A stretch of DNA of 32,895 nt from contig PKTL01000080.1 of NCBI GenBank assembly GCA_002867475.1, positions 1 through 32,895 of the forward strand, read 5' to 3'. The notes beneath the pieces are model-generated. The model had not been told where the DNA came from, searched no databases, and saw only the letters and a program-made list of their open reading frames with translations. Positions 217 to 26,116 of this stretch are shown here, one piece after another (the first letter of the stretch is position 1; each line of letters begins with the position of its first letter). The DNA is from Candidatus Woesearchaeota archaeon. GTDB lineage: Archaea > Nanobdellota > Nanobdellia > Woesearchaeales > BM511. The position numbers and the translations under genes are program-made.

Positions 217-1911
217 ATGATAGTTTTGGGTATATGGGATGGACATGATTCTGGAGCTGCATTGATCATTAAAGGAAAAATTGTTGCTGCGGCTAACGAA
301 GAAAGATTCACTAGAAGAAAAACAGAAATAAGGTTTCCAACACATTCAATTAGGTTTTGCTTAGAAAAAGCTAAACTAAAACCAAAAGACATAAACCAGG
401 TAGCTATTCCATCAAGCGATTTTAGCAATTCCATTACCAGACTTTTCCCTTCAATAAAAGAAGATTACTATTTTGTACGAAGAAAACTAAAGAAAGGAAG
501 CAAATTATCAAGCATGAACCGTCCTTTGATGAATATGTTGGGTAGATTAAGATCTAATAAGTTATTCAAAAAAATAGCGATTGAAACAACAAAAAAGAAC
601 CTGAAAAGATTAGGGTTCTCAGATGATATAGAAATAAGCATTGTGGATCATCATTTAGCTCATGCTGCATCAGCTTATTTCTGTAGCGGGTATGATAAAG
701 CGATATGCATAACTATGGATGGTCTAGGAGATGGTATATCCACAACAATCAATATATGTAAAGGAAATGAGATTGAAAGGATTCATGAATCTGGAACCAA
801 AGATTCTTTAGGCTTATTATTTCAAGATGCAACACAAACTTTAGGATTTAGAATACTCGAAGACGAAGGAAAAGTAATGGCCTTATCAGATTATTCAAAA
901 ACTGATAAAAAAAATCCTTTGATAAGTATGTATTCAATCAATGAAGGAAAAACTATCTTAAACATAACAATGACTAAAAGATGGGAAAAACTTCAAAGAT
1001 TAAACAAGAAATTCAGTAAAGAAGATATTTCTTTCTTTATTCAAGAAACATTAGAGGAAAAAATAAAAGAACTTATTGAATTTTGCATAAACACCTATAA
1101 AATTCCTAATTTCTGTTTTGCAGGAGGGGTATTTTCTAATGTCAAGGCAAATAAAAGAATAAGAGAGATAAAAGGGGTTAATGATTGGTTCATATTTCCT
1201 AATATGGGCGATGGGGGATTAGCAAGCGGTGCAGCATTACATGTTTCATCAATACTTTTCAACACAAAACCTTATAGGCTCAATAATGCTTATCTTGGTC
1301 CTGATTTTGCAGATTCACAGATCCAAAAAGAATTATTGAATGATTCGAAAAAAATAGAATTTGAAAAAATTGATGATAAAAACAAATATGCTGCTGAATT
1401 ACTTGAAGATAATAATATCCTTTTTTGGTTTGATAATCGGATGGAGATGGGTCCAAGAGCTCTTGGTGCAAGAAGCATATTAGCAAGACCTGATATATAT
1501 GAGAACAAAAAAAGATTGAATTTAATAATAAAAAAAAGAGACCCTTTTCAACCTTTTTGTCCAAGCATTCTTGAATCTCATGCAAAAAGATATCTTAAAG
1601 ATTTTAAGATTCCAGAGCCTTTCATGACAATGGCTTATGATACAAAAGAAGAAGTTAAAGATAATTTTATCGCAGCGTCAAGCGTAGACGGAACTACAAG
1701 ACCACAAACAGTAAATGAAACAAACAATAATTATCATCAAACAATAAAACATTTCAATAGATTAACAGGAATTGGAGGCATTCTAAACACGAGTTTTAAC
1801 ACACATGGTGAACCTATAGTATGCACTCCTAAAGATGCTATAAAAGTAGCTATAAGAAACAAGCAGGATTATCTTATAATAGGAAATTATGTTGTTAAAA
1901 GAAAAAAATAA
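217..1911 (+). CDS. NodU/CmcH-family O-carbamoyltransferase
   Basis: 564 residues, full length for the carbamoyltransferase family that uses carbamoyl phosphate and ATP to form carbamoyl-adenylate and then O-carbamoylates a sugar or antibiotic. The N-terminal Kae1/YrdC-associated ASKHA-type domain opens with IWDGHDSGAAL and NEERFTRRK (residues 6-35). It carries the metal-binding DHHLAHA motif (144-150) and the nucleotide loop TMDGLGDG (166-173). The C-terminal carbamoyltransferase domain shows NRMEMGPRALGARSIL (about 406-421), SVDGTTRPQTV and the terminal LNTSFNTHGEPIVCTP signature. The start is favoured by a TATA-like box 26 bp upstream and by family N-terminal alignment. It is followed after 72 bp by a GT-C glycosyltransferase and sits beside a large sugar-modification cluster, so a glycan hydroxyl is the likely acceptor. 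The acceptor itself cannot be read from the sequence. Confidence 0.92.
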   Translation: MIVLGIWDGHDSGAALIIKGKIVAAANEERFTRRKTEIRFPTHSIRFCLEKAKLKPKDINQVAIPSSDFSNSITRLFPSIKEDYYFVRRKLKKGSKLSSMNRPLMNMLGRLRSNKLFKKIAIETTKKNLKRLGFSDDIEISIVDHHLAHAASAYFCSGYDKAICITMDGLGDGISTTINICKGNEIERIHESGTKDSLGLLFQDATQTLGFRILEDEGKVMALSDYSKTDKKNPLISMYSINEGKTILNITMTKRWEKLQRLNKKFSKEDISFFIQETLEEKIKELIEFCINTYKIPNFCFAGGVFSNVKANKRIREIKGVNDWFIFPNMGDGGLASGAALHVSSILFNTKPYRLNNAYLGPDFADSQIQKELLNDSKKIEFEKIDDKNKYAAELLEDNNILFWFDNRMEMGPRALGARSILARPDIYENKKRLNLIIKKRDPFQPFCPSILESHAKRYLKDFKIPEPFMTMAYDTKEEVKDNFIAASSVDGTTRPQTVNETNNNYHQTIKHFNRLTGIGGILNTSFNTHGEPIVCTPKDAIKVAIRNKQDYLIIGNYVVKRKK

Positions 1912-1983: not shown

Positions 1984-3744
1984 ATGAACATTTTATCTGG
2001 TGCAATTCTTTTCATATTTTCATATATCCTAACTTCTTTGTATATATATTTGATAACTAGAGATATAAAAAAAGGATTGATATGTTTTTCATCTTTATTT
2101 TTTTTAACTCCTATAATCTCTTTTGCAATAGCTTGGATAACTAATAAAACTTTAGATCTCTTCTTATTTACAAGTATTGTTCTTTTCATATTTTCAACAC
2201 AGTTATTTATGGTTTTATTAAACAAATCCAAAAAGGATAACAATCTGAAAATTAGTGTAAAATATGTTTTGATAATCGCATTTTTAGTATTTGTAATCTT
2301 TTTTTTTAATTTCAAAGGACTTGGTTATGGCTATTGGGACACCTATATAATTCTTCCATCAGCACTTATGGTCGGAGATCAAATAGAATTGACCGATATA
2401 AACGGAGGAACCCTATATGATATTGGTTCCACAGGATCCATAAAGACAAATCTAATAGATAAGGAAACCTATGGGATATCAACAAAAGACCAAAGGATAG
2501 GTTCAGCAATCTTTTATTCAATACCTTACTTGTTATTTGGAAAAATAGGATTTAGAATATTTTACTCGCTTTTAGGAGGATTACTATTTATATTAACATA
2601 TTTCATAACAGAAAAAGTTCTTGAAAACAAAAATATAAGCATTATTTCAGGTCTAATATTAGCTTTAAACCCTTATATATTAAATGTCAATCGACTAAAT
2701 CCTAATCTGTTAGCATTAACACTTATAACTTTTATGATGTTTCTTCTAGTAGAAAAAGACAAAAATGATTGGATTTTATTAGGGATGCTTTTAGGTGTTT
2801 TAGGAGGTATAAGAAATGTTTCATTATTATTTATACCTTCTTTTATATTTTTCATGGTTTTTGGTAGCAAACTATTAGAAATAAAAAATAAAAATAATAA
2901 AATTCTGTTGAAAAACTTTTCATTATTTGTATTCGGAGCTTTATTATTCATAATTCCTATACTTTTATGGAACAATTATGTTTTTGGAGGAATATTAGAA
3001 CATCCCACTCAATCTGAATATCTCCAAGGATATAGACCAACATTTGAACATAGCTTATTAGGAGTAACTTTCAAATTCAATGGACTCTTCAATTACCCCT
3101 TAATAGATAAAGTGATAAGAACCCCTCATAACGCTTATCCCACATTTTTGACCTTGCCCTTGCTATTGTTAAAATCTTTTGGACTTCTTTTTTTACCTTT
3201 AATATTATTTGGTATAAAAAAGTTATATTCAAAAGATAAAAAGCTTTTATTTTTCCTATTGATATTTACAATTCCTTATTTTTTATTTTTATCTGTACAA
3301 GAAAACTGGGAAGATGTAAAATCTACCTTTATTCTATTAATATACACTCCTTTAATAATCCTTATGACAGCAGGCATATATGAACTAAAAAAATTAGATA
3401 AGAAAAAAATAATTACTTTTTCTGTCATACTCATCTTTTCTTTGATTTTTTTACAGATAATTTCTAATATCAATTTTGAAAAAGATGATAGGTGGTATGA
3501 GAGATTCCCTAAAGCTGGGAGTATAGAAGAATTTAATTATGAGGATCCTTTGATGCGTGATGAATGGCAATATTTTCATACAGATGAATCAATACAAGAG
3601 ATAGAAACTCAAAAAAATATACTTACATATCCTAATTTTTTACCTCAATATAATATTTTATCATTACCAAATCTAAATAACATCTATAATGAGCTTAATA
3701 ATGAAAAATTAGTGCTAAACGAAGTATGGGATCACATATATTAA
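1984..3744 (+). CDS. GT-C (ArnT/PMT-like) multi-pass membrane glycosyltransferase
   Basis: 586 residues with about ten to twelve hydrophobic helices spread from residue 4 to about 495 and a hydrophilic C-terminal tail of roughly 90 residues. The arrangement (N-terminal helices, then a loop with GLGYGYWDTY including D119, then many helices with short loops such as GGIRNVS) resembles the GT39/PMT_2 group of the GT-C superfamily. Those enzymes move a sugar from a polyprenyl-phosphate donor to a lipid or protein on the outer face of the membrane. An A/T-rich TATA-like stretch at about 1955-1965 lies about 25 bp before the ATG. The gene ends 6 bp from the stop of the convergent aminotransferase-radical SAM gene, with no room for a separate terminator. 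The superfamily call is fairly firm; donor and acceptor are unknown. Confidence 0.7.
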   Translation: MNILSGAILFIFSYILTSLYIYLITRDIKKGLICFSSLFFLTPIISFAIAWITNKTLDLFLFTSIVLFIFSTQLFMVLLNKSKKDNNLKISVKYVLIIAFLVFVIFFFNFKGLGYGYWDTYIILPSALMVGDQIELTDINGGTLYDIGSTGSIKTNLIDKETYGISTKDQRIGSAIFYSIPYLLFGKIGFRIFYSLLGGLLFILTYFITEKVLENKNISIISGLILALNPYILNVNRLNPNLLALTLITFMMFLLVEKDKNDWILLGMLLGVLGGIRNVSLLFIPSFIFFMVFGSKLLEIKNKNNKILLKNFSLFVFGALLFIIPILLWNNYVFGGILEHPTQSEYLQGYRPTFEHSLLGVTFKFNGLFNYPLIDKVIRTPHNAYPTFLTLPLLLLKSFGLLFLPLILFGIKKLYSKDKKLLFFLLIFTIPYFLFLSVQENWEDVKSTFILLIYTPLIILMTAGIYELKKLDKKKIITFSVILIFSLIFLQIISNINFEKDDRWYERFPKAGSIEEFNYEDPLMRDEWQYFHTDESIQEIETQKNILTYPNFLPQYNILSLPNLNNIYNELNNEKLVLNEVWDHIY

Positions 3745-3750
3745 TCAATA

Positions 3751-5907
3751 TTATTGTTTAAGAATAAAATGAGCGCACCTTTTACATATTGGATAAGCTC
3801 TATTTTCTAAATAATCATTTATGAAATTATTCAATACTTTTGAATGTAAAACATCATTTTTATTGCAAACTTTTTTAGTTAGGTCTTCTCTAATAATCCT
3901 ACAGATTTTGAAATTTCCATAAGGATCAACACGTAAACTATTAGTAAGGATATTTTTACAAAATCCTTTAGCAGGAGCAACTTCATAAAAATCTTCAACT
4001 GAAATATTAAGATGTTCTGGGAGAAAAGAAATTTCAGTTAAATCTTCAATATTTTTCTTGATATCCATTAAATTTTTTTGTGCAGGTATTTTTTCTGATC
4101 CATTAATATTTTTTGAGATAGCTATAATTTCAATATCTTTTTGATCTTTTTTTAATATCTTTGACAATCTTTTTTTAGTAATATCCAATTCTTCTTTTGA
4201 ATAAAATTCATTAGGTAAAATCATAGTGGTAAACCTATTTTTATCAGAATAGGCTATTATTTTTTTCAAATCTGAAAGATTATCCTCATATACTACGCTT
4301 CCAATCCCTATAATAAACTCCTTTTTTAAGGTATCAATCAAACCCATGATATTTTTTGAAGATTTATAATCTTTTTTTGGAAGATTATCATCATTAAAGT
4401 AATCAAATGAAAAATTTAATATTCCTCCACCCCCATATTTTTTGATCTTTTGAACAAAATCCAGATCAAAAGACCTCCCATTAGTCAAAAGCGTAAAAAA
4501 AATATTCTTCTTTTTCAAAACATCTAAAAAGTCAAAAAAATCTTTTCGAATCGTTGCTTCTCCCCCGCTAAGAACAACTTTTTTAGGATTAAACTCATCC
4601 AATATTTCTTCAAATCTTTTCACACTGATTAAATCCTTACCCTCAAATCTTTTCTTTATACTACTTCGATAATCCTTTTGATAACATTCTTTGCAATCCA
4701 TGTTGCAGTCAAGAGTAAGCTCAAAAGTTATTTGATCAACTTTTCTTGAAACAACTTCTTTAATCGATGAAAAAATATTATCAATCAATTCTTTATTAGG
4801 TCTAGATGGAAGCTGAATGTCAATAAGGGAATCATAAATCTTCTCACTTTTTTCAAGATCAAAATTAACTGAACTTAATTTTTTATCAAGATATGGGTTA
4901 TATCTAAAAATTTCATGTTTATGAAGTAAACCATAACGTTCATTTGATGCTTTAACACCTTTTTTATTAAGTCTTAATATGAAAAGTTCTTTTTTTAACC
5001 CAATCTTATCCCCATCATATCTAATCTTAAAACCATAAAAGCTTCTTGAATCACAATAATCAGGGGTTTTAATAATATCTAGGCCTTTTATAGGTTGATT
5101 TTTGAATTTTTCTTCAAGATATATGCTATTTTGATTTTTCAATCTTATAAGATCATTAATTTTATCCAATTGAGAGTAACCTAATGAAACATTAAGCAAG
5201 CTTGGTCTATATTTGAATCCAAAACCTGTGTCCTTAAATTTTTTTAATTTTGAAATTGTTATCTTATTCAATCTTCCAAAATGACCTAGAAGCAATGCTT
5301 TTTCATAATATTCTCTATTATCCGTACAAAAAAAACCACCTTCTCCAGAAGATAAGGTTTTGCTGTTTTGAGTACTAAAACAAGATATGTCTCCAAAACA
5401 ACCTACTTGCTTTCCTTTAAACTTAGTTCCATATGCATGAGAACAATCTTCAATAATTTTCAAATCATATTTTTTTGCAATTTTTAAAATATTATCAAGG
5501 TTTGCTGCAACACCATATAAATGACATACCAAAACAGCTTTAGTCTTTGAGCTTATCAATTTTTCAATAGAATCTGGATCTATATTCAAGGTTTCATCAA
5601 TATCACAAAATACGGGTCTTGCGCCAAGATCTAATAAAGGAGTCACAGAACTATGCCAAGTCAAACAAGGAACAATAACTTCATCATCTTTTTTTATACC
5701 AATAGCAAAATATGCTGAGTGTAAAGAAGCAGTACCATTAGTAACATTCAATACATATTTTCTATTAACAAATTCACCAAATTTATTCTCATACTGCTCT
5801 ATAAGACTGTCTTTTCCATTTTGAATAGATAACTCTTCATTTTTTAATGAATTTAATACTTGTTCAATATCTTTCCTGTTGATTATAGGCCAATCCCTTA
5901 TTCCCAT
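3751..5907 (-). CDS. DegT/DnrJ/EryC1 aminotransferase fused to radical SAM/SPASM domain
   Basis: 718 residues in two catalytic halves. Residues 1 to about 385 are a PLP-dependent sugar aminotransferase: NVTNGTASLHSAYFA (54-68), the PLP-contacting EDCSHAYG (153-160), and the Schiff-base lysine K183 in NSKTLSSGEGG. Residues from about 390 on are a radical SAM domain with the cluster motif C401-x3-C405-x2-C408 (CNMDCKEC) and the SAM-binding LSGGEAT (446-452). A Cys-rich SPASM-like tail holds C650, C669, C681, C708 and C711. DegT enzymes aminate keto sugars. Radical SAM enzymes are known to pair with them, for example DesII with DesI and BtrN with BtrS, so the fusion suggests oxidation or elimination followed by amination of one sugar nucleotide; this coupling is inference. 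A minus-strand TATA-like box at 5931-5938 is about 27 bp upstream of the ATG. The gene is divergent from asnB. Confidence 0.88.
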   Translation of the reverse strand: MGIRDWPIINRKDIEQVLNSLKNEELSIQNGKDSLIEQYENKFGEFVNRKYVLNVTNGTASLHSAYFAIGIKKDDEVIVPCLTWHSSVTPLLDLGARPVFCDIDETLNIDPDSIEKLISSKTKAVLVCHLYGVAANLDNILKIAKKYDLKIIEDCSHAYGTKFKGKQVGCFGDISCFSTQNSKTLSSGEGGFFCTDNREYYEKALLLGHFGRLNKITISKLKKFKDTGFGFKYRPSLLNVSLGYSQLDKINDLIRLKNQNSIYLEEKFKNQPIKGLDIIKTPDYCDSRSFYGFKIRYDGDKIGLKKELFILRLNKKGVKASNERYGLLHKHEIFRYNPYLDKKLSSVNFDLEKSEKIYDSLIDIQLPSRPNKELIDNIFSSIKEVVSRKVDQITFELTLDCNMDCKECYQKDYRSSIKKRFEGKDLISVKRFEEILDEFNPKKVVLSGGEATIRKDFFDFLDVLKKKNIFFTLLTNGRSFDLDFVQKIKKYGGGGILNFSFDYFNDDNLPKKDYKSSKNIMGLIDTLKKEFIIGIGSVVYEDNLSDLKKIIAYSDKNRFTTMILPNEFYSKEELDITKKRLSKILKKDQKDIEIIAISKNINGSEKIPAQKNLMDIKKNIEDLTEISFLPEHLNISVEDFYEVAPAKGFCKNILTNSLRVDPYGNFKICRIIREDLTKKVCNKNDVLHSKVLNNFINDYLENRAYPICKRCAHFILKQ

Positions 5908-5930
5908 ATAATACTATAATGAACAGGATT

Positions 5931-5938
5931 TTATAAAT
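5931..5938 (-). promoter_or_regulatory. TATA-like box for the DegT-radical SAM gene
   Basis: Read on the minus strand this is ATTTATAA, centred about 27 bp upstream of the ATG at 5907, consistent with a leaderless archaeal transcript. Confidence 0.4.
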
Positions 5939-5961
5939 ATATAACAAATCATTGAGTAAAG

Positions 5962-5970
5962 ATTATAAAT
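5962..5970 (+). promoter_or_regulatory. TATA-like box for asnB
   Basis: ATTATAAAT is centred about 26 bp upstream of the ATG at 5992. That ATG must be the true start because Cys2 is the glutaminase nucleophile, so the transcript is probably leaderless. Confidence 0.45.
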
Positions 5971-5991
5971 TAAGAAGAAATAAAATAAAAT

Positions 5992-7656
5992 ATGTGTGGG
6001 ATCTTAGGGATTTTGAGTTTAAATGATAAGATTAGTGTAACTAAAAAAGAATTTAAACAGATCTTAAATGAATTTATATATAGAGGTCCTGATGCACAAT
6101 CAATTTATGAAGAAGACAACCTACTTTTTGGGCACAATAGATTAGAGATTCAAGGAAATTCAAATCAACCATTATTTAATGAGGATAAATCCTTAGTATT
6201 AATATGTAATGGTGAAATATATAATTATGATGAATTAAGAAAAGAACTTGAAGGTAAAGGACATAAATTTAATTCTAATTCAGATAATGAAGTATTAGTG
6301 CATCTATATGAAGAAGAAAAATTAAATTTTTTCAATAAGGTAAATGGTTTTTTTTCTTTTGCAATATATGATTTCAATGAAAAAAAATTGGTATTAGCAA
6401 AAGATAATATGGGGAAAAAACCTCTTTTTTATTATTTTGATAAAGAAAAAATAATATTTTCCTCTTTTTTGAGATCTATAAATAAAATTTTAGATAAAAA
6501 AGGAATCATAAATGAATTAGTACTTAGAAGATATTTTGAATTTGGAAACATTCCTTCTCCTTTTACAATCTTTAAAAATATATATAAAGTGCGACCCGGG
6601 CAACACATAATTTTTGATCTAGATAAAAAAATGAAAGTATCAACAAAAAATCATTTCAAATTATCCTTTGAAAATAAGAAAATATCTCTAACTGAAGCAA
6701 AAGAAGAATTAGATCAAATATTTGAGAAAAGTATCAATTCAAGAATTAACACCGATAAAAATCTGGGACTTTTAGCATCAGGTGGTTTAGATTCAACAGG
6801 TATATTATATTACATCCAAAAGAAGATAGAAAAAGTAAACACATATTCAGTATCTTTTGAAAATGAAGATCAGAAGTATTTAGATATACTAAATAAAAAT
6901 TTCAATATAAACAGTAAAATTCTTGATTTTAATGAAGAAGCCTTTCATAAAAACCTAGATTCCATAAAATTTATGGCAGAACCTGTAACAGATGACGAGT
7001 ATATCCCCTTATTTCTGTTATCTAAAAAATATATGAAAGATATAAGAATCTTATTAACTGGAGATGGAGCGGATGAAATTTTTGCAGGATATAAATATTA
7101 TGCAAATTTTTTAGGCAGAAAATTTTTTGATTTTAAAGAATTCAAAAATAAAGGTGTTCTTATGAATAAATTAAATGAATATGGTCCAGATTCCATATTT
7201 AAATATTATAATATTAATACAACCCCTTTAAGACAAGCAATGTTTTATGATATGAAACTCTATTTATCTGATTTCACACTTCCTGTTGTAGATAATGCAA
7301 CTATGGCAAATAGTATAGAAACAAGATCTCCTTTCTTAGATAGAAGATTGATAGAATATTCTTCCAAACTAGATGAGAACTTTTTGATATCTCACAATTA
7401 AACAAAAAAATTATTGAGAGAATTATTTAAAAACAAGATTCCAAAAGAAATATTAGAAAGAAAAAAGAAAGGATTTTCTATAAAATTAGATAATTATAAT
7501 ATACCTATTTCTTATGAGGATATTTCAGATTTTTTCAAAGAAAACAATTTAAGTAAAAAAACTATTGATATAATCCTTCCATATCTAAAATATAATTATG
7601 GAAGATATAAATTTTTCATATTGTTAAAATGGTTAAAATATCATAATACCTTCTAA
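5992..7656 (+). CDS. asnB: AsnB-type glutamine amidotransferase, interrupted by in-frame TAA at 7399-7401
   Basis: 554 codon positions if the internal stop is bridged; the uninterrupted part is 469 residues. The class II glutaminase domain starts MCGILGI with nucleophile C2, followed by RGPDAQ (31-36) and NGEIYNY (73-79). The synthetase domain has the PP-loop SGGLDST (263-269) and TGDGADEIFAGY (356-367). Codon 470 is TAA, and the same frame continues with TKKLLRELFKNKIP and the conserved basic RKKKGF (490-495). In the AsnB family the stop position aligns with a Lys in the (G)KTK motif, so AAA to TAA is the simplest change. Loss of the tail would remove family-conserved residues needed by the synthetase site. 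In glycan loci such enzymes often amidate uronic acids, so this need not make free asparagine. It is a pseudogene, an assembly error or a readthrough gene. Confidence 0.85.
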
Positions 7657-7735
7657 TTTTTTGAAAATAATATATTTATTGTAAATATTTTTTAGTTCAC
7701 CTATATGAGGCAGGTTTTGTATCAATAAGTTACAT

Positions 7736-7743
7736 ATTTAAAT
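7736..7743 (+). promoter_or_regulatory. TATA-like box for the radical SAM gene at 7765
   Basis: ATTTAAAT is centred about 26 bp upstream of the ATG at 7765. The 108-bp interval after asnB also has a short T run at 7659-7664 that could end asnB transcription. Confidence 0.35.
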
Positions 7744-7764
7744 AATTCATCCATTTCATAATAT

Positions 7765-9327
7765 ATGCGAAGGTTAAACACATTATTTCTTATCGGTGAT
7801 TTATCAAATTCTAATCATCTATTTCAAGAACTTGACCAAATAGGTACAACCACAAATTTTTTCTCATTAAAAAAAACAAAGAATCCAGAAAACTCGTCTT
7901 TTTATAGCTCATCATTTGAAATATTATATGATTCAGCATACCCTAAACTTTTGAAAAAAAATGAAAAAATCTATAAAAAAATGATGGATCAAATTGAAAA
8001 TCTATCAAAAAATTTTGATTTTATCTCATTCTTAAATATAGCTGATGTATTGTTTTATGCAAAAAGATTGAAAGAAAAAATGCCTTTAGTTGGTTTTTTT
8101 AATAAAAAAGAATTTGATAATTTGATAAGTAATGAGGATAAAATAAACAATTTTATATTTAAAACATTAGATCTAGTCATTGTTGATTCTGAACAAATAT
8201 ATTTACCCAATCATAAATTTTCTAACAATTCCACCTCGGAATATCTAGAAAAGATATTTTTTACAAAGTTTGAAGATAAAAAAGGATTATATTTTCCAAT
8301 ATATGAAATTCTATTCAAGAATAATTTTATAGATCATGTAAGCATTAAACTATTATCTAAATGTAATGCTCAATGTGTGATGTGTGATATTGGAAACAAG
8401 ATTGGCGGTGAGTATTTTCTTGAAAAATATATAATTCTAAAAATATTAGATGAATTAAAAGAGATAGGTGTGGAATTTATCACCTTTACCGGAGGAGAAC
8501 CAACACTTCGAAATGATCTAATTGAATTGGTTGAATATGCAAAAAAATTAGGATTTAAAGTTTTTTTAAGCACTAATGCCCATCTTCTTTCTAAAGAAAA
8601 AATTTCAAGATTAAAAAAAGCAGGTCTTTTTGGATTTAAGTTTTCTTTAGATTCTATAGATAAGGAAAAACATGATAACATCCGTAGGTTGAAAGATAAT
8701 TTTGATCAAGTGATATTTGCAATAAAAGAAAGTGTTAAAGAAGGTATGGAAGTGTATGTAAACTCTGTAATAATGAATCATACCTATAAAGAATCTTTAG
8801 ATTTTTTACGATATCTATCAAGTTTAAATGTTAAAAATATTTCATTTTCTATGTTAGAAGAAGAAAATGAATCTTTGAAATATGTTTTAAGTAAAGAGCA
8901 AGTAAAAGAATTCTATATTGAAATAATGCCAAATTTGTATTATTTAGCAAAAGAGCAAGGAATCTTCTTAAAGATAAACCCTCAATTAGAACAAATAGCA
9001 AATTCAAAAAAAGAAAATATGGAACAGGATATAACAAAAAATCTTGATAAATTTAATGATGAAATCATTAATTTTTCAGAATTAAAATATGGGAAAACTT
9101 TTTTTAAAAAAAATCCTTGCAAAACCATTACAAGTTCTTTTATGATACGGGAGAATGGAAATATATATCCTTGTTGCATGGCATCAGGAAACAAGATGAG
9201 TATGGGAGATATCAAAACCCAATCAATAAGAAACATACTCGAATCAAAAAAATATCATTTATTTAAAGAAGATATTGCTAAAAGTAAAAATTCTATCTGT
9301 GAATATTGCAAAGACGGAATTCTTTGA
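7765..9327 (+). CDS. Radical SAM/SPASM protein with half-glycosyltransferase-like N-terminal domain
   Basis: 520 residues. Residues 190 to about 420 form a radical SAM domain with the cluster motif C200-x3-C204-x2-C207 (CNAQCVMC) and FTGGEPTLR (241-249). The C-terminal SPASM-like segment has C452, the pair C470-C471, and C512-x2-C515. The first 180 residues form an alpha/beta unit: FDFISFLNIADVLF, then PLVGFF, then LDLVIVDSEQIY. This follows the same order as the first Rossmann half of the GT4 protein at 13983-15968 (DLINIHVFSDADLLP, then KVLTLHEY, then IDLLLCFSKYQKK). That suggests a decayed or repurposed GT-B N-terminal domain; it is a visual comparison only. The stop lies 35 bp from the convergent operon. 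The substrate is unknown, with a sugar or lipid-linked sugar plausible from context. Confidence 0.82.
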   Translation: MRRLNTLFLIGDLSNSNHLFQELDQIGTTTNFFSLKKTKNPENSSFYSSSFEILYDSAYPKLLKKNEKIYKKMMDQIENLSKNFDFISFLNIADVLFYAKRLKEKMPLVGFFNKKEFDNLISNEDKINNFIFKTLDLVIVDSEQIYLPNHKFSNNSTSEYLEKIFFTKFEDKKGLYFPIYEILFKNNFIDHVSIKLLSKCNAQCVMCDIGNKIGGEYFLEKYIILKILDELKEIGVEFITFTGGEPTLRNDLIELVEYAKKLGFKVFLSTNAHLLSKEKISRLKKAGLFGFKFSLDSIDKEKHDNIRRLKDNFDQVIFAIKESVKEGMEVYVNSVIMNHTYKESLDFLRYLSSLNVKNISFSMLEEENESLKYVLSKEQVKEFYIEIMPNLYYLAKEQGIFLKINPQLEQIANSKKENMEQDITKNLDKFNDEIINFSELKYGKTFFKKNPCKTITSSFMIRENGNIYPCCMASGNKMSMGDIKTQSIRNILESKKYHLFKEDIAKSKNSICEYCKDGIL

Positions 9328-9362
9328 AAATATCTATATTAATGCATCAAGGTTATAGGATA

Positions 9363-11561
9363 TCATATCAAGTCTTCATAGATGTCTTCAAGAAGAGTAT
9401 TTTGAATGTCTATATTGAAATCTTTTTTTACTTTTTCTCTAGCAGAAAAACCAATCTTTTCCCAAACATCCTTATTTTTGTAAAGATATTCCATTCTTTC
9501 AAATAAACCTTCAGCATGTTTTTCCTTGACTAAATACCCAGACTTTTCTTGTTCTATAAGTTCGCTTATGCCTTTATGAAATGTTGAAATCACGGGCATT
9601 CCTGTACTCATTGCTTCCATCAACACAACAGGGATGCCTTCAGAATCATTATTCTTCCCGGTGACAGAATGGAGTATAAATATGTGGTTTTCATATAATC
9701 TATCAAGGATTTTATTATTTGGCACTTTATCTTTTAATATAACCTTATTTTCCAAGTTATTTTCATGTATAAAATTTAACAGATCTTTTTTTTCTTCTCC
9801 TTCACCAATAATAGTCAAAGAAGAATCAGGATATTTTTTATTGAATAAGTTAAATGCTTTTAGAGTATATATCATCCCTTTTTTAGGGATCAATCTACCG
9901 ATACTAATAAATCTAATCTCTTTATTTTTAGGTAAATCTCTTTTCTTGTATGAAAAAAAAGCAGTATCTACGCCGCTATGATGGATCTTAATCTTATCCT
10001 TAGGACAACCTTTTTTTATCATATCAGATTTCATTATCTCAGATCTTACTAGAAATAGGTCTCCTTTTTCAAAAACTTTAGAATAATCAAGATCTTTAGA
10101 ATAAAAATCATAACCTCTAACAGAAGAAATAAGTCTTGTATCTGTTATGGTTTTTAATTTCAAAAAGAAAAAAGCATCAGTTAGATAGCTAGCATGCAAT
10201 ATCCTTATTTTTTTATCTTTTATTATCTTAGTGCACTTATTAATAAATTCATCATACACTCCTTTAGATCTTCTCATTATTAGAGGATATGAAGGTTTCC
10301 ATAAACTACTATATTTGTCATCAAAAAAAATGTTTTTGCTTTCATAATCTTTTTTCTTATTCAAACAGAAAATATAAGGAACAAATCTTTTCATATTTCT
10401 TATTTCATCAAAAATAAATTTTTCACTAATATCCAACCACTCCCCTTTAACAACAGCTATATTATCTTCTTTCCCATATTCTTTTTTTAGAAATTTCAAT
10501 ATCTTTTTTGCACCTTCAATATTTCCTTGCTTTAATCCAGGAAAACATTTTTGCATCTCTTTCAATCTATCTTTTCTTATGATTTCTTCCAACTTTTTAA
10601 AAATCTCCTTTTCTCCAGAAATAACACACCCTTTTTCTTCTAATCTTGAAACCCTTAAAAACTGGTCATCTTCTTTTCTATCAAGAGGGATTATTATAGA
10701 AGGAGTCTTAGCAAGCACGACCTCATTGACAAGATTATACCCTCCTGGAATAATACAAATATCTGAATCTTTAATATCATTGAACAAATCATAGCTAAAT
10801 CTTTTCGATTCAAATCCTTCTAAAGAATATTTTTTATCATTAAAAAAAGGACCTGTAATAATATTAACATCAATATTTTTACCATTAATTACTAATTTAT
10901 TTTTTTTCAATTCTTTCAAAAAAGATGAAATATTATCAAATAAAGGTTCATTATTTTTTACATCAGACCCACCTGCAAAGCATATAAGAATATTCAAATC
11001 ATTACTATTTTTTTTGGATATCTTTCTTTCAGAAAATTTTATTATAGGTCCAATAAAAAAAATATTGCTCAATTTTTCTAAAATTTTCAATTGATCAGGC
11101 TTCACTTCTTTTTTTAGATGGGGAACTAAAACAATATCAAATTTCTTGATAATTTCCTCTTTAATTAAATCATTAAAATATGAATTTTTTTTATTTCGTA
11201 GTATAAAACCTATTTTTATATCATTGTCAATACAAAAATCAATAAGTTTAAGGTTTATTTCTGAATCAAACAAAATCATATCAGGTTTCTCTTTTAATAG
11301 AATATCTTTAATAGCTACAAAATTATATTCTAAATATTTTTCATAAGAAATCTCATTATTAAGAACATTTTTAGTATTCATATCTAATCTTGTGAAGGTA
11401 AAACCTTGTTTAGCAATAAGATCTGTAAATTCTGAATTTGTTACAAAAGAGATATCCAGAGACGAATCAAGGCTTCTAATATTTTTAGCAATCTCTAAAG
11501 TTCTGACCAGATGACCAAGACCAACACCATTAATTGCATGTATCAATAATCTCATATTCAA
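9363..11561 (-). CDS. Tandem GT-B glycosyltransferase: MurG/GT28-like plus GT4-like
   Basis: 732 residues holding two complete GT-B enzymes. Residues 1 to about 365 are MurG/GT28-like: GVGLGHLVR (12-20) is the Gly-rich acceptor loop, ICFAGGSD (193-200) starts the second Rossmann domain, and GGYNLVNEVVLAKTPSI (273-289) is the donor-binding region. Residues from about 370 on are GT4-like, with ISIGRLIPKKG (552-562), LTIIGEGEE and the EX7E-type SEGIPVVLMEAMSTGMPV (640-657). Two consecutive sugar transfers by one chain are implied. The gene is last in the minus-strand operon and its ATG lies 32 bp inside the preceding deacetylase gene, so translation is probably coupled. A second in-frame ATG at 11555 (MRLLIHAI) is an equally plausible start. 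Donor sugars are unknown. Confidence 0.88.
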   Translation of the reverse strand: MNMRLLIHAINGVGLGHLVRTLEIAKNIRSLDSSLDISFVTNSEFTDLIAKQGFTFTRLDMNTKNVLNNEISYEKYLEYNFVAIKDILLKEKPDMILFDSEINLKLIDFCIDNDIKIGFILRNKKNSYFNDLIKEEIIKKFDIVLVPHLKKEVKPDQLKILEKLSNIFFIGPIIKFSERKISKKNSNDLNILICFAGGSDVKNNEPLFDNISSFLKELKKNKLVINGKNIDVNIITGPFFNDKKYSLEGFESKRFSYDLFNDIKDSDICIIPGGYNLVNEVVLAKTPSIIIPLDRKEDDQFLRVSRLEEKGCVISGEKEIFKKLEEIIRKDRLKEMQKCFPGLKQGNIEGAKKILKFLKKEYGKEDNIAVVKGEWLDISEKFIFDEIRNMKRFVPYIFCLNKKKDYESKNIFFDDKYSSLWKPSYPLIMRRSKGVYDEFINKCTKIIKDKKIRILHASYLTDAFFFLKLKTITDTRLISSVRGYDFYSKDLDYSKVFEKGDLFLVRSEIMKSDMIKKGCPKDKIKIHHSGVDTAFFSYKKRDLPKNKEIRFISIGRLIPKKGMIYTLKAFNLFNKKYPDSSLTIIGEGEEKKDLLNFIHENNLENKVILKDKVPNNKILDRLYENHIFILHSVTGKNNDSEGIPVVLMEAMSTGMPVISTFHKGISELIEQEKSGYLVKEKHAEGLFERMEYLYKNKDVWEKIGFSAREKVKKDFNIDIQNTLLEDIYEDLI

Positions 11562-12684
11562 TTAAGCTTAACCTCATCTTTTTTGATAAAATAAATTCAA
11601 TAATCTTTTCTAAAAGTTTTTTACCTTGTTTTGAAAAAAAGTTAGGATGCAATAAAACACCCATATATTGTTTGTTATTATAAGTATCTTCTAAAAGATT
11701 ATTCATTTCTTCAATTGTAAAATATTCATTTGTATCATAATTTTTTACAATATCAAGATTCATATTGAATATATGCAATCTTTCATTTTTTATATTATGA
11801 CCTTCAAATAAAGAAACCATTTTAAATCCTTTCCCTTCAAGAATCTTAATTGTGTCATCATTATAACCATGATATGGGGGTGTGAAAACATAATTGAACT
11901 CTTTACCAAACAAATTTCTCATAATATCCAAACCATCCAAAATATCATTATTTTGTTCCTGATAAGTTCTTTTAGTTCCAAATTCATATTTCTTGTAAGA
12001 ACTTTTCTCTCCAGAATGATTCATATGAGAATATCCATGCATATTGAAAGAAATCAATCTTGGAAACTTTTTTTTCAATTCTTTTAGATAAAAAACCGTT
12101 TCTTTATCTATCCTATTTGGCACAACTTGTAGGTTAACAGGAATCTTTTTAGATAAAAGCAGATCCATTATATCAACCAATTCATCACATTTAGAATAAA
12201 CATCATCAATCCTAAAAAAGGATCTAAATATGCCTTCATTAAATACCAATTTTTGTTCATTTTTAGATTTTATTTCAATCAATTCTGAATTTTTTCTGAT
12301 AGATAAAGGAACATTATCAAATCTTTCAAAACAATAATATTTCAACTCTTCAGTTTCATATTTATCATATAATTGTATCAATGATTTGATCAATGATGAG
12401 AATTTATTTCGGTCAATCATTTTTTTATCAGAACTGTTATATGCTAAGCATTTTTTAGATAGAAAAACAGAGTATTTTTTTGATATCCTATAACCTAATT
12501 CAATATCTTCTGCCCCCCACATCAAAAAATCTTCATCAAACATAAAATCCATAAAAACCTCTTTCTTTATCGAAAAATTTCCAGAAGCAAAAAATTTCCA
12601 TAAACTCTTTGAATATTCTTTTTGGTCAATAAATATGTTTTCTCTAAATTCAGGCAAAATAGTTTTTATCTCTTTTTTTTGCAT
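11530..12684 (-). CDS. GT2 C-terminal half plus polysaccharide deacetylase-like (CE4) domain; downstream part of a split gene
   Basis: 384 residues. Residues 1 to about 110 are not an independent domain. FFASGNFSIKKEVF and MWGAEDIELGYR (55-66) match the C-terminal part of GT2/GT27-type glycosyltransferases (Glyco_transf_7C), whose N-terminal half lies at the end of the gene at 12718-13986. The two frames are the same, separated only by a TGA and 11 codons. Residues from about 148 on are a NodB/CE4-like domain: FRIDDV with D160-D161, HGYSH with H216 and H220, FTPPYH (267-272) and VLLHPNFF (343-350). This domain would deacetylate an N-acetylated sugar or a related substrate. No Shine-Dalgarno site precedes the ATG at 12684, and its stop overlaps the next gene by 32 bp. 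Confidence 0.82.
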   Translation of the reverse strand: MQKKEIKTILPEFRENIFIDQKEYSKSLWKFFASGNFSIKKEVFMDFMFDEDFLMWGAEDIELGYRISKKYSVFLSKKCLAYNSSDKKMIDRNKFSSLIKSLIQLYDKYETEELKYYCFERFDNVPLSIRKNSELIEIKSKNEQKLVFNEGIFRSFFRIDDVYSKCDELVDIMDLLLSKKIPVNLQVVPNRIDKETVFYLKELKKKFPRLISFNMHGYSHMNHSGEKSSYKKYEFGTKRTYQEQNNDILDGLDIMRNLFGKEFNYVFTPPYHGYNDDTIKILEGKGFKMVSLFEGHNIKNERLHIFNMNLDIVKNYDTNEYFTIEEMNNLLEDTYNNKQYMGVLLHPNFFSKQGKKLLEKIIEFILSKKMRLSLIEYEIIDTCN

Positions 12685-12717
12685 TATTTTTTCGTATAAT
12701 TTTTCAAATGAATAATG

Positions 12718-13986
12718 TCATTTTTTACTTCCATATCCTGCAAAATATCCAAGAATAATGTCTTTAGCTTTTTGCTCATCCACGTGATTTTTAATAAGAT
12801 CCTTATGAGCAACACAATCCTGATCTAAAAATATCAATATTCTCCCCTTAGCTTTTTTTGCACCATAATTTCTTGCAATACTTGCACCAAAAACCTTTGC
12901 ATTTTGAAGATAGTAATAGGATATCCAATCATTATCTAAATTTTCAACAATCTTCTTATTTTCCAATCTTTCTTTTTCATTGCTTCCATCATCAACAATT
13001 ATGACCTCAAAATCACTAAAGCTTTGTTCTTTCAAGCTTTCAACCAAAAGACTTAATCTTTTAGAATCATTAAAAGCAGGAACAATAATACTTATTAAAG
13101 GAATAATATTTTTCCTATCAACAAGATAATCTGTTTTACCAAGACCCCCTTTACATTTTTCAAGGTAAAAACAAGAAAAACATTCTTTTTTCAAATTTTC
13201 ATACCTTCTAATAGGTTCAGTTTTTCCCCAAATATCCAAAACTTTTTTTGTTTCTACATCCCCTATATCTTTAGAGAAATAATCAGTCCTATATTTACCT
13301 GAGCTATCAATATATAATCTACTATGCCCTGAATCAAAAACGCCTCCTTTACAATATCTTGAAATATCTTTTTCTATGGAACAAAATGGAACACTATTTG
13401 CAATCATTATATTCATATCAAATTTTTCATTCAATCTTTTTATCTCTTTAAAAAGAAATAACAGATCCTTATCTTTAATAGGGAATTTATATTTTGGATT
13501 AGGGACTGGTCTAAGCAAAAACCATTCTTTGAAAAAAGGAGAATTTATCTTGGAAATACATTCATAATATTTATCAAGATTTAAAATATTATCTTCTGTC
13601 ATAATAGTGCATAACATGACATCTTTATTGATAATTTTTAGTTTTTCTTTTATGATATCAAATTTAGAAATGTCATGAAATGATATCAAAGTAAGATCAA
13701 TAAAATCAAAAATATTGGGGGTTTTTATCAATAATCCGTTAGTATTGATAATATTATAGATTCCTTTAGATTTAGAGTAAGAAAGAATATCCTTTAGATC
13801 ATCTCTAAGAAAAACTTCACCACCCGTATACCTTATAGCCTTTATACTTGAGCTAGACACATCATCAATGATCTTTTTGATCTTATTAATTTCCATATTT
13901 TTCTTTTTTGGAGGATTAAAACAAAAAGCACAATTCATATTGCATTCGCTTGTTAATTCAAGAACAATTTCATTAGGAATATTCAT
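12718..13986 (-). CDS. Radical SAM enzyme fused to GT2 glycosyltransferase N-terminal half
   Basis: 422 residues. Residues 1 to about 200 form a radical SAM domain with C15-x3-C19-x2-C22 (CNMNCAFC) and YTGGEVFLR (53-61). A twitch/SPASM-like Cys set follows (C202, C212, C269, C272, C278). Residues 296 to the end begin a GT-A family 2 transferase: PLISIIVPAFN (296-306), VIIVDDGSN (328-336), ASIARNYGAKKAKG (368-381) and the metal-binding FLDQD with D388 and D390. The sequence stops at GYGSKK with TGA, exactly where GT2/GT27 proteins would continue, and the missing C-terminal part follows in frame in the next gene. Bridged, the product would be about 818 residues: radical SAM-GT2-CE4. It overlaps the upstream gene by ATGA (13983-13986), which implies tight translational coupling. 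Confidence 0.85.
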   Translation of the reverse strand: MNIPNEIVLELTSECNMNCAFCFNPPKKKNMEINKIKKIIDDVSSSSIKAIRYTGGEVFLRDDLKDILSYSKSKGIYNIINTNGLLIKTPNIFDFIDLTLISFHDISKFDIIKEKLKIINKDVMLCTIMTEDNILNLDKYYECISKINSPFFKEWFLLRPVPNPKYKFPIKDKDLLFLFKEIKRLNEKFDMNIMIANSVPFCSIEKDISRYCKGGVFDSGHSRLYIDSSGKYRTDYFSKDIGDVETKKVLDIWGKTEPIRRYENLKKECFSCFYLEKCKGGLGKTDYLVDRKNIIPLISIIVPAFNDSKRLSLLVESLKEQSFSDFEVIIVDDGSNEKERLENKKIVENLDNDWISYYYLQNAKVFGASIARNYGAKKAKGRILIFLDQDCVAHKDLIKNHVDEQKAKDIILGYFAGYGSKK

Positions 13987-15968
13987 TTTATAATCGGTTT
14001 AAATTCTTCATCTCCATAATTTTTTATATACTCTTCATAGATTCCTTCACAAACACTATTAAGGTTGCAAATTTTACATTTATTTATTTTTACTTTATAT
14101 GTTTGTCTTCCTTCATTGATAAAATAATCATCCTCTTTATTTTTAGGATAAACTCCTTTATAATTTTCATTCTTATTTTTATGAAAATATTCTAAGCTTT
14201 TCTTGTATGAATCCTTAATTAAACAAAAAGGAACCCCTTCAAAAACATATTCTACATTTTTTGAATCAAGATATTCTATAAGTTCATTGAAATAAGGCAG
14301 TGAATCTTCATATTTAGATATCAATTCATCAAATCTTTTTTTAGCACCCCCAACAGGAGTCATAAAAGCGATAAATAATGTATCAACATTTTTTTTTATA
14401 AAAAAATCTGCTAATTCTTTCAATTCCTTATAGTTTTGCTTATGAATAAGAATTCTTCCTGTAACATCTGCTTTGATAGAAACAAGATTCATCAACCCTT
14501 TTGTTGTTTTATCAAAATTTCCCTTTTTCCCAGTAAGTTCATCATGCAATCTTGCTTTGTGGCTTGTCAATGAAATAACATAGCTTAATTCATATTTTTT
14601 AATCTTATCAAAAAATCTTTTTCCTGAAATAAGCTTAGCATTAGTAAAAAGAATCATTTTATAACCTAATAATTGTCCGCTTTTTAAGATCTGGAAAAAA
14701 TCAGGATGAAAAGTTGCGTCTCCTGAATTAGAAAAAACAATCTCTCCATATTCTTTTCTTTTTTCAATCAATACTTTTTTGATATCCTTAAAAGAAATAA
14801 ATCTATTTGGCTTATTATCTTCAACACTACAAAAACAGCAATTATTATTACAAACATATCCTGTTTTTAACATTAGACTTTTAGCAGGAGGGATAGTTTC
14901 ATATAATTTATTGATTTCTTCATTATATTCATTAAAATCTTTAACAATCGGAAATGAATATCTGTTTTTTTTTCTTGATAATTCTTGAACTAATAAGATA
15001 AGTTCATCAAAATCTGCATATGTGTGGGCATAATTCTTATCAACTTTTTCAATCATGCTTGGAATATTTTTAATTATCAAAGGAGTTTTAAAATAAACAC
15101 TTTCATATAATGTTAATGGGCCTGTTTCATTCCAATTTGAAGGAATTATAATATAATCAATAGATGAATAAAATTCATCCATCATATCATATTTTAAATC
15201 ATAAGTTATATCTATTTTTTTAATTTTTTCAATAGTTTCTTTATCTAATGGTTGCTCTTTTGACAAAGCAATCTTAAAATGAATATCTTTTCCTTTAAAC
15301 CTTTCAACAATTTTTACAAATTCTTGAAACCCCTTTATTTTGGAAGTGGTTCCAATAAAACCCAAAGTTGTGTTTGTAGTTTTTTTTGTTTTAGGTTTTC
15401 CAAAATTAGGGTATATGCCATGATATACAACTTTAGTTTTTTTACTAAAAACATTGTTAGTGATCCTATCTAAAACTTTTTTTTGATATTTAGAAAAACA
15501 TAATAAGAGATCTATTTGGCTTAAAATTAAGTCTAACTTAAACTGTCTTTTTTTGTTCTCTTTTGGTGTGGCTTTTTCACAATTGCAATCAGATAATTTT
15601 TCTATATCGCAATTATTTCCTTTGTTTTGTAAGGTTCCTTTTTTACATATAAGAGAATATTCATGCAATGTTAAAACTTTTTTAATACCTAATGAGGATG
15701 CAGCGTTAAGTATTGGTAGAAGATCTGCATCTGAAAAAACATGAATATTTATAAGATCTAAATCCAAGCTTGATAATAATTTTCTTGTGGATAAAACATC
15801 TTTATTGTATTTTCCTGATAAAAAAAGATCTTGTATATTTTTATTTTCCGTTGGGGTTTCGTTATCATATGAAACCTTGATGAATTCTTCATTTTCTTTT
15901 AAGTTTCTTATAATAAATATGTCCATGTAAGGGTGGGTTATGTTGGTAGAAATATGAACTATTCTCAT
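13983..15968 (-). CDS. GT4-like glycosyltransferase fused to radical SAM/SPASM domain
   Basis: 661 residues, first gene of the minus-strand operon. Residues 1 to about 355 are a GT-B fold GT4-type transferase: MRIVHIST, LTLHEYSLICK (99-109), LLLCFSKYQKKV (154-165), VVYHGI (180-185), LGFIGTTSKIKGFQEF (202-217) and the donor site NWNETGPLTLYES (278-290). Residues from about 362 on are a radical SAM domain with C373-x3-C377-x2-C380 (CNNNCCFC), SNSGDATFHPDF in place of GGEP, and a C-terminal Cys group C631, C634, C640. A GGTGA site on the minus strand (15976-15980) lies 7 bp before the ATG, and a minus-strand TATA-like box lies at 15986-15994. The order is the reverse of the next gene (radical SAM then GT2). 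The joining of a transferase to a radical enzyme suggests modification of the sugar it transfers; this is inference. Confidence 0.86.
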   Translation of the reverse strand: MRIVHISTNITHPYMDIFIIRNLKENEEFIKVSYDNETPTENKNIQDLFLSGKYNKDVLSTRKLLSSLDLDLINIHVFSDADLLPILNAASSLGIKKVLTLHEYSLICKKGTLQNKGNNCDIEKLSDCNCEKATPKENKKRQFKLDLILSQIDLLLCFSKYQKKVLDRITNNVFSKKTKVVYHGIYPNFGKPKTKKTTNTTLGFIGTTSKIKGFQEFVKIVERFKGKDIHFKIALSKEQPLDKETIEKIKKIDITYDLKYDMMDEFYSSIDYIIIPSNWNETGPLTLYESVYFKTPLIIKNIPSMIEKVDKNYAHTYADFDELILLVQELSRKKNRYSFPIVKDFNEYNEEINKLYETIPPAKSLMLKTGYVCNNNCCFCSVEDNKPNRFISFKDIKKVLIEKRKEYGEIVFSNSGDATFHPDFFQILKSGQLLGYKMILFTNAKLISGKRFFDKIKKYELSYVISLTSHKARLHDELTGKKGNFDKTTKGLMNLVSIKADVTGRILIHKQNYKELKELADFFIKKNVDTLFIAFMTPVGGAKKRFDELISKYEDSLPYFNELIEYLDSKNVEYVFEGVPFCLIKDSYKKSLEYFHKNKNENYKGVYPKNKEDDYFINEGRQTYKVKINKCKICNLNSVCEGIYEEYIKNYGDEEFKPIIK

Positions 15969-15994: not shown

Positions 15995-16101
15995 GATCTT
16001 ACATAAAAATATTATTTTAATACAAACCCTTTTTCCCATATTTTTTATTTTTCAATCTATGTATAAAAATCTATCTTTTAATGAAGGTAAATAGAGAAAG
16101 A

Positions 16102-16109
16102 TTTATAAA
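16102..16109 (+). promoter_or_regulatory. TATA-like box supporting a start at 16132
   Basis: TTTATAAA is centred about 26 bp before the ATG at 16132, the spacing seen at other genes here. The other nearby box (TATAAAAAT at 16062-16070) is too close to the ATG at 16081 to serve it. Confidence 0.3.
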
Positions 16110-16131
16110 GAAATTTATGTATGGAAAATTT

Positions 16132-25297: not shown

Positions 25298-26115
25298 ATT
25301 CAAACATCTTCAATGTTTTAGCTGAAAGACAAAAAGACTTGAAGCTAAGACTCTCTCAAGCAAGAATTGCAGATTCTCCAACAGAATTTATCAGAAAAAC
25401 TTTTTTTATATCAGGATACGCAACTTTTGGAATGCTTATAGTGTTTTTTCTTTTTTTTAGTTTTCTAGATTTAAAGACAAAAATTCTTATAATTTTATTT
25501 GGATTGCCTCTTCTTGGCGTATTCATATTCAATTATTTTATGAAATATCCTGATGTCATGATAAAAAAGGTTGAACGTGAAATAAACAAGGAGATAATTT
25601 TTGCAGGAAGATTCATGATTATTGAGCTTGATAGTGGGATCAGCTTATATAATACTTTGATAAATGTAGGTAATAATTATGTTGTTGTAGGAAGATACTT
25701 TAGAGAGATAATCGAAAAAGTAAAGATGGGAACAAGTCTTGAAGAAGCTATAAATGAAGGTGTTGAGACTGTACCAAGTGCAAATCTTAGAAAGATCCTT
25801 TGGCAGATACTAAATAGTTTAAAGACGGGATCAAATATTGGCAATTCTTTGAATTCAGTAATAGAGCAGATAATAAGAGAGCAAACCATAGAAGTCAAGG
25901 AATATGGGCGAAAACTTAATCCTCTTGCAATGTTCTATATGATGATAGCAGTAATAGTTCCAAGTCTTGGAATGACAATGCTTGTGGTGTTATCAACATT
26001 TTTAGGATTGCAATTATCTTTACCTGTGCTTTTATCCATATCTTTATTTTTAGGATTCATGCAATTCATGTTTATTGCAATGGTAAAATCTTCAAGACCT
26101 GCGGTGGACTTATAA
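25294..26115 (+). CDS. TadC/FlaJ-like pilus platform protein (GspF domain), first of a pair
   Basis: 273 residues. Two N-terminal membrane segments (about 35-58 and 63-82) are followed by a GspF/T2SSF-type cytoplasmic helical domain. Its features include AGRFMIIELDSGISLYNTL, MGTSLEEAINEGVETVPS and LNSLKTGSNIGNSLNSVIEQ. Two more hydrophobic segments close the protein (PLAMFYMMIAVIVPSLGMTM, and LPVLLSISLFLGFMQFMFIA near the C terminus). Platform proteins sit in the membrane beneath the growing pilus and couple to the ATPase. The start overlaps the ATPase stop by ATGA. A near-paralogue follows directly, as in Tad and some archaeal pilus systems that use two half-size platforms. Confidence 0.87.
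   Translation: MNSNIFNVLAERQKDLKLRLSQARIADSPTEFIRKTFFISGYATFGMLIVFFLFFSFLDLKTKILIILFGLPLLGVFIFNYFMKYPDVMIKKVEREINKEIIFAGRFMIIELDSGISLYNTLINVGNNYVVVGRYFREIIEKVKMGTSLEEAINEGVETVPSANLRKILWQILNSLKTGSNIGNSLNSVIEQIIREQTIEVKEYGRKLNPLAMFYMMIAVIVPSLGMTMLVVLSTFLGLQLSLPVLLSISLFLGFMQFMFIAMVKSSRPAVDL
26103..26107 (+). promoter_or_regulatory. Shine-Dalgarno-like GGTGG before an ATA codon
   Basis: GGTGG lies 9 bp before ATA at 26117, which is where the Lys-rich coding frame of the second platform protein appears to begin. The placement supports a start there even though ATA is not a standard start codon. Confidence 0.3.
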
Positions 26116-26116
26116 G

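Follow-up and report, generated by a model that had tools for sequence, protein, structure and literature searches.

Radical SAM domains joined to sugar-handling enzymes in a Woesearchaeota archaeon: a probable glycosylation arm of a His-Xaa-Ser-type peptide system

In desosamine biosynthesis, the DesI/DesII pair carries out a 4-amination followed by a radical deamination, and the radical S-adenosylmethionine (SAM) enzymes BtrN and AprD4 have a twitch-like auxiliary-cluster pattern. Mycofactocin is a ribosomally synthesized and post-translationally modified peptide (RiPP) that is made by a radical SAM enzyme and glycosylated by MftF, a family 2 glycosyltransferase (GT2) (PMC7491314). The His-Xaa-Ser (HXS) systems, our account of which is drawn from PMC9062424, are represented by curated family models (those used here were NCBIfam TIGR03978, TIGR03977, NF038313 for HxsA4, and NF038332 for HxsC4), and the literature searched contained no published product of any of them. 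Here we describe a gene cluster in a 32,895-nucleotide stretch of the genome of a Candidatus Woesearchaeota archaeon (GenBank assembly GCA_002867475.1, contig PKTL01000080.1; 'the window' denotes this whole stretch), in which radical SAM domains (rSAM in the names of fusions) are joined to sugar-handling domains (Table 1). We hold with moderate confidence that these genes form the glycosylation-and-radical arm of an HXS-type RiPP system in this small-genome archaeon, with radical and sugar-transfer domains covalently combined. What it makes is probably a surface peptide that bears radical modifications and sugars, and not a cell-surface sugar of the ordinary kind.

The window is contig C71 of its genome (G000), in which a second contig, C78, is also relevant. 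Pfam confirmed the fusions reported in the first-pass annotation of this DNA, namely DegT-rSAM, GT4-rSAM, and rSAM-GT2, together with a GT28-GT4 double glycosyltransferase. All four radical SAM domains of the window retain the CxxxCxxC motif, and their remaining cysteines divide them into two types. The twitch pattern, C-X17/18-C ... CX2C, occurs in DegT-rSAM (C650-X18-C669 and C708-X2-C711) and in the radical SAM/SPASM protein at 7765-9327; the two glycosyltransferase-fused domains, which are of HXS type, have the pattern C ... CX2CX5C. The two best family matches of the domain in GT4-rSAM were HxsC4 (1.4e-30) and HxsC (2.8e-30), and its relatives are encoded by stand-alone genes, arranged in arrays, that match HxsC4 best. 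In a Foldseek search with its predicted structure, the radical SAM part of rSAM-GT2 was nearest to SuiB, CteB, SkfB, and PqqE, and the GT2 part matched the MftF model at 5e-12. The curated DesII, BtrN, and AprD4 families were absent from the 25 best families listed for each radical SAM protein of the window. In the monomer models, mean predicted local distance difference test scores were 73-74 and predicted template modeling scores 0.50-0.61, with the placement of domains relative to one another too uncertain to show whether active sites face each other.

The same genome encodes both HxsB and a candidate precursor peptide. HxsB lies outside the window, on C78, and scores 415.7 bits against a cut-off of 370. 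Directly after it, at C78:10921-11148, is the gene for an HxsA-like peptide, MKIPKLKKKITNFLIKEDGKITKEHLIKTGIILTTLSLATQSSDADGTTHQNSMQIHNDGDGATGTHSHHVSHSSY, in which the leader common to these peptides is followed by the tail THSHHVSHSSY. HxsA-like precursors have a basic leader (PKxKKKIxxFLxxEDGKISK), a hydrophobic stretch, and a His/Ser-rich tail ending in SHxSY/W. The gene classes on C78 are much like those of the window: a CE4 gene beside hxsA, an LPG-synthase-like membrane protein, radical SAM proteins, two B12-rSAM proteins, a methyltransferase, a GT-C, a DegT, and a GT2. Because the genome holds no other strong match to either the rSAM-GT2 or the GT4-fused radical SAM type, the fused versions in the window seem, on sequence comparison, to serve as the HxsC-like partners of this HxsB. 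Of the 25 Radical_SAM matches in the 1.67-Mb genome, 11 fall on C71 and C78, which total 61 kb; this concentration, together with the recurrence of the fusions in other families, is more than chance. As a separate observation, one part of C78 (L053, L054) packs seven radical SAM genes into about 15 kb, two of them with B12-binding domains.

Comparison with 353 genomes of the same order, other families included, placed relatives of the window's genes in HXS loci. HxsB was found in 59 of these genomes, an HxsA-like peptide in 55, and both in 46. Alongside HxsC4-type arrays in the relatives are small genes whose His-Xaa-Ser repeat peptides share a leader, one of the longest of these peptides scoring 65.8 bits against HxsA4, above the cut-off of 55; the 450-470-residue radical SAM protein adjoining such peptide genes is HxsB. 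In five genomes (G143, G140, G097, G096, and G006), HxsA genes have a stand-alone member of the rSAM-GT2 radical SAM family 37-238 bp away (in G140 it makes up half of a protein with two radical SAM domains), and relatives of the GT4-fused domain occur 7-21 bp from HxsB. The gene set co-localizes with hxsA/hxsB in G235, G143, G123, G140, and G136. In G235, a 21-kb stretch contains rSAM, rSAM-GT2, GT28-GT4-rSAM, rSAM, GT28-rSAM, AsnB-like, rSAM-rSAM, rSAM, DegT, hxsA, and hxsB; in G136, hxsB and hxsA have AsnB, GT2, GT4, and carbamoyltransferase genes, the last related to that of the window, within 10 kb; and in G123 an HxsA-like gene precedes by 1 kb a gene for a giant protein (at least 1999 residues) with the architecture rSAM-GT2-GT2-CE4-B12-rSAM. 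Across the order, the rSAM-GT2 profile was present in 26 genomes, of which 21 had HxsA or HxsB, versus 47 of the 327 genomes without the profile (Fisher p = 2e-12, kinship uncorrected).

Two further features of these loci were noted in passing. The HXS leader/tail also forms the N-terminus of larger proteins (L246 2401-3345, L225 8274-9662, and L233 1008-1577), one of which appears to contain a Hint/intein-like segment (CFVAGTKVLLENG) and another a peptidase S74/chaperone-like segment. In G235 (L133 6686-13056), the radical SAM/HXS array lies near genes for DNA polymerase D and Orc1/Cdc6, and this may be a favored site of insertion close to the origin; gene trios matching these in size adjoin arrays in G052 and G017 (L045 and L052). 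PolD and Cdc6 genes at a related locus identify the host as an archaeon.

The fusions themselves, which had been proposed for a search of related genomes, recur elsewhere in the order: DegT-rSAM in one other genome, rSAM-GT2 in three (G042, G235, and G123), and GT28-GT4 in two. In G042, which belongs to a different family, rSAM-GT2-rSAM (918 residues), GT28-GT4 (743 residues), and DegT-rSAM (718 residues) follow one another, at most 20 bp apart or overlapping, with 53% (shared part), 41%, and 46% (full-length fusion) identity, respectively, to the window proteins. Their occurrence in other families, at 41-53% identity, rules out assembly joins as their source. Other arrangements include GT28-GT4-rSAM (1523 residues) alongside GT28-rSAM in G235, GT28-rSAM-rSAM-GT2 in G140, GT2-rSAM in G129 and G026, and an rSAM-GT2-rSAM of a different clade in G006 and G097. 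On a FastTree phylogeny of 265 radical SAM domains, whose deep branches are uncertain, the state 'fused to a glycan enzyme' changed at least 14 times. Both fusion orders, noted earlier in the window, occur across families, and repeated fusion is supported. In a set of 69 large radical SAM proteins encoded at these loci, partner domains were GT2 in eight, GT1 in three, GT28 in three, GT9 in two, B12-binding in 15, and methyltransferase or APH in others; one separate example (L050 2462-6562, 1367 residues) combines three radical SAM domains with a B12-binding and a methyltransferase domain. A 371-genome sample of the phylum, in which the order was also represented, yielded no full-length rSAM-GT2 fusion from outside the order, and a GT28-GT4 query against contigs of the named genomes gave two weak GT4 matches only. 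Nothing on radical SAM-glycosyltransferase fusions of this kind appeared in the literature searched.

These data bear on what the enzymes act upon. The first-pass annotation had proposed an unusual surface glycan or glycolipid. In such a model, the radical SAM domains would modify sugars by deoxygenation, epimerization, or amine elimination, the attached domains would transfer or aminate them, and DegT-rSAM would be a fused analogue of DesI/DesII. The sugar-modifying genes on which the proposal relied are present as a full tailoring set, and DegT-rSAM agrees with it in two respects. The predicted structure of its DegT half matches sugar transaminases in Foldseek, and the pairing recurs: the complete fusion is conserved in G042, its only other occurrence among the 353 genomes, and G175 encodes the two halves by neighboring genes, with the radical SAM part unfused. 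The DegT half belongs to the DegT/DnrJ/EryC1/StrS family (3.9e-73, Pfam), its SxxxK...GEGG motif is kept in G042, and the pyridoxal phosphate lysine is near-invariant in the DegT alignment. The protein at 7765-9327 has as its closest Protein Data Bank entry a sugar-acting enzyme, cytosylglucuronate decarboxylase. Against a purely sugar-directed system stand the families of both glycosyltransferase-fused radical SAM domains, which adjoin hxsA/hxsB; the resemblance of the modeled rSAM-GT2 domain to peptide maturases; the lack of DesII, BtrN, and AprD4 among the best families listed; and, DegT apart, the lack in the window of obvious genes for sugar-nucleotide biosynthesis. We therefore regard a free glycan or glycolipid as an unlikely product, and prefer a peptide because relatives of the window's radical SAM proteins adjoin hxsA/hxsB and the genome itself has HxsB and an HxsA-like peptide. 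Membership in RiPP-maturase families with precursors nearby, which had been named in advance as evidence against the glycan proposal, is largely what we observe, in the HxsC4/HxsC matches of GT4-rSAM, the kin of rSAM-GT2 beside hxsA, and the G235 locus; the candidate precursor, however, lies outside the window.

Several observations weigh against assigning the cluster to an HXS system. The window contains no RiPP precursor, the gaps among cluster genes being at most 112 bp, and no common end sequence was found that would physically link C71 with C78. The HxsA-like peptide of this genome scores 36.6 bits against HxsA3, below the cut-off of 65, and GT4-rSAM falls below the curated cut-offs of both HxsC4 (106.7 versus 500 bits) and HxsC (105.2 versus 267.9 bits). 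DegT-rSAM and the 7765-9327 protein have no orthologues directly beside hxsA or hxsB, and the Fisher test overstates the evidence because the genomes are related. Many HXS loci lack glycan genes, which places glycosylation outside the core HXS system.

A sub-case of the HXS-type system that we favor is a division of labor among its enzymes. Under this arrangement, the peptide would be the substrate of rSAM-GT2 and GT4-rSAM; the amino sugar attached to it would first be modified by radical chemistry, the work of DegT-rSAM and perhaps of the 7765-9327 protein. The twitch cysteines shared by the two proteins with affinities to sugar enzymes, set apart from the C ... CX2CX5C pattern of the HXS-type pair, are consistent with this, as are the different neighbors of the two types among relatives. 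Sugar-directed radical chemistry is possible for both proteins on the strength of that cysteine pattern and, for 7765-9327, of the decarboxylase match. The cysteine pattern is not a reliable predictor of substrate, and we consider the mixed arrangement a possibility clearly short of even. A search by sequence for solved structures close to the radical SAM domain of DegT-rSAM found none.

A different explanation is that the island combines two unrelated functions, those of an ordinary cluster for surface glycans and of a radical SAM family that has expanded, with the fusions reflecting frequent gene joining in compact genomes. The order is rich in radical SAM genes and in other large fusions (with methyltransferase, APH kinase, B12-binding, and GT9 domains), and the cluster is island-like in composition, with a GC content of 23-29% compared with 29-39% for the remaining contig. 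Coincidence of this sort is difficult to reconcile with specific fusions that are conserved at full length across families and with their repeated placement beside hxsA/hxsB, and we judge it improbable. In favor of the HXS-type system, none of the three other genomes in the window's family has the rSAM-GT2 profile, HxsB, or HxsA; this joint absence and the AT-rich cluster are as expected if the genes are acquired or lost en bloc.

For an HXS-type system with a peptide substrate, the following sequence of events can be proposed. A membrane-anchored His/Ser-rich precursor would be made, with HxsB acting together with it (the genes for both are present on C78), and the HxsC-like and rSAM-GT2 radical SAM domains would modify the peptide. 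The GT2, GT4, and GT28-GT4 enzymes would add sugars, which DegT, CE4, AsnB, and the carbamoyltransferase could aminate, deacetylate, amidate, and carbamoylate; the GT-C protein might transfer sugars or serve in their tailoring or extension. The finished product would be displayed at the cell surface, and the fusions would hold radical modification and sugar transfer on one substrate. More tentatively, with chances we place a little below even, the cluster may represent a hybrid class of natural product, in which one modular protein performs radical chemistry and sugar transfer on a genome-encoded surface peptide, and combinatorial fusions (rSAM-GT2-GT2-CE4-B12-rSAM, GT28-rSAM-rSAM-GT2, GT28-GT4-rSAM, and DegT-rSAM) act as a small assembly line that diversifies within the order. 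For HXS systems, the fusions offer a concrete hint at the role of the modified peptide, and the tethering of a peptide-type radical SAM domain to a glycosyltransferase in single proteins makes the question testable. As the lineage likely depends on cell-cell contact, such a peptide would be a candidate for surface recognition.

The remaining genes of the cluster are listed in Table 1. The flanking AsnB, carbamoyltransferase, GT-C, and GT28-GT4 genes were identified by Pfam as first described, the carbamoyltransferase and GT-C lying just beyond the span 3751-15968; relatives of the GT-C protein are encoded on contig C82 of G042 and on C78. The 7765-9327 protein had been read as half of a GT-B glycosyltransferase joined to a radical SAM domain. 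The radical SAM and SPASM part stands, but the half-GT-B identity is unproven: the N-terminal 190 residues matched no Pfam family, hhalign against GT4 gave a probability of 2.5%, and the sole hint is a weak collinear match (E 0.004) to the N-terminal half of a GT4 domain from G235. Its nearest relative is a stand-alone radical SAM protein within the G235 HXS locus.

Table 1. Positions, strands, and basis of assignment of cluster features in the window.
Feature	Positions	Strand	Basis
NodU/TobZ-type carbamoyltransferase	217..1911	+	Carbam_trans_N and Carbam_trans_C (Pfam)
GT-C (PMT_2-like) membrane glycosyltransferase	1984..3744	+	PMT_2 1e-7 (Pfam)
DegT sugar aminotransferase-twitch-type radical SAM fusion	3751..5907	-	DegT 10-382 + Radical_SAM 397-551 (Pfam)
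AsnB-type glutamine amidotransferase, frame interrupted	5992..7656	+	Pfam/NCBIfam + translation
Radical SAM/twitch-SPASM protein with 190-aa N-terminal extension	7765..9327	+	Radical_SAM 9e-28, SPASM 2e-12 (Pfam)
GT28-GT4 double glycosyltransferase	9363..11561	-	GT28_C + GT4/GT1 (Pfam)
GT2 C-terminal part + CE4/DUF2334 polysaccharide deacetylase	11530..12684	-	DUF2334, Polysacc_deac_1, GT7C (Pfam); in frame with 12718-13986
In-frame TGA breaking rSAM-GT2-CE4	12718..12720	-	translation
Radical SAM + N-terminal part of GT2	12718..13986	-	Radical_SAM 10-91 + Glycos_transf_2 299-413 (Pfam)
GT4 fused to HxsC/HxsC4-like radical SAM	13983..15968	-	Glycos_transf_1 193-313 + Radical_SAM 369-522 (Pfam)

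Two otherwise intact reading frames are interrupted. The domains of the radical SAM-GT2-CE4 protein described initially do lie in one frame, but not in a single intact protein, as an in-frame TGA divides them between two open reading frames (13986-12718 and 12684-11530). The orthologue in G042 reads straight through this site, the stop is absent from the G042 and G235 orthologues, and our structural model of rSAM-GT2 was built with the TGA read as Trp. In AsnB, the interruption is an in-frame TAA (7399-7401), and the C-terminus is encoded in the same frame at 7414-7656. A changed genetic code with recoded stops is unlikely because TGA and TAA both terminate other genes in the window; the two stops may reflect pseudogenization, consensus error, or read-through.

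Directly downstream of the cluster (16081-22537) are genes for two large secreted-looking proteins of 910 and 1249 residues, the second with MopE-type copper-binding motifs. Positions 23738-27283 encode a PilB3-like ATPase (T2SSE) of the archaeal type IV pilus/secretion type and two T2SSF membrane proteins; a Memo-like protein follows at 28066-28920.

Set against the described systems, the locus shares with DesI/DesII, BtrN, and AprD4 the pairing of aminotransferase and radical SAM seen in DegT-rSAM; here, the two are fused in one protein, in an HXS-type context, and without a family-level match to those enzymes among the 25 best families listed. SuiB, CteB, SkfB, and PqqE, RiPP maturases whose folds are the closest to the predicted structure of the rSAM-GT2 radical SAM part, differ in lacking a glycosyltransferase fusion. 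Mycofactocin provides a parallel in its coupling of a radical SAM enzyme (MftC) with a GT2 (MftF), the family model that the window GT2 matches, but the mft genes are separate, the MftA precursor is absent here, and mycofactocin is a redox cofactor, unlike the membrane-anchored peptide proposed for this archaeon. To HXS systems the likeness is that the genome encodes an HxsB that exceeds its cut-off and an HxsA-like peptide, that the window has an HxsC-like radical SAM domain, and that kin of the window families adjoin hxsA/hxsB. The locus departs from them in a precursor whose tail, rich in His/Ser, is short and stands in place of a long repeat, in the fusion of its HxsC-like domain to a GT4 and of a second radical SAM domain to GT2-CE4, and in its many glycan genes.

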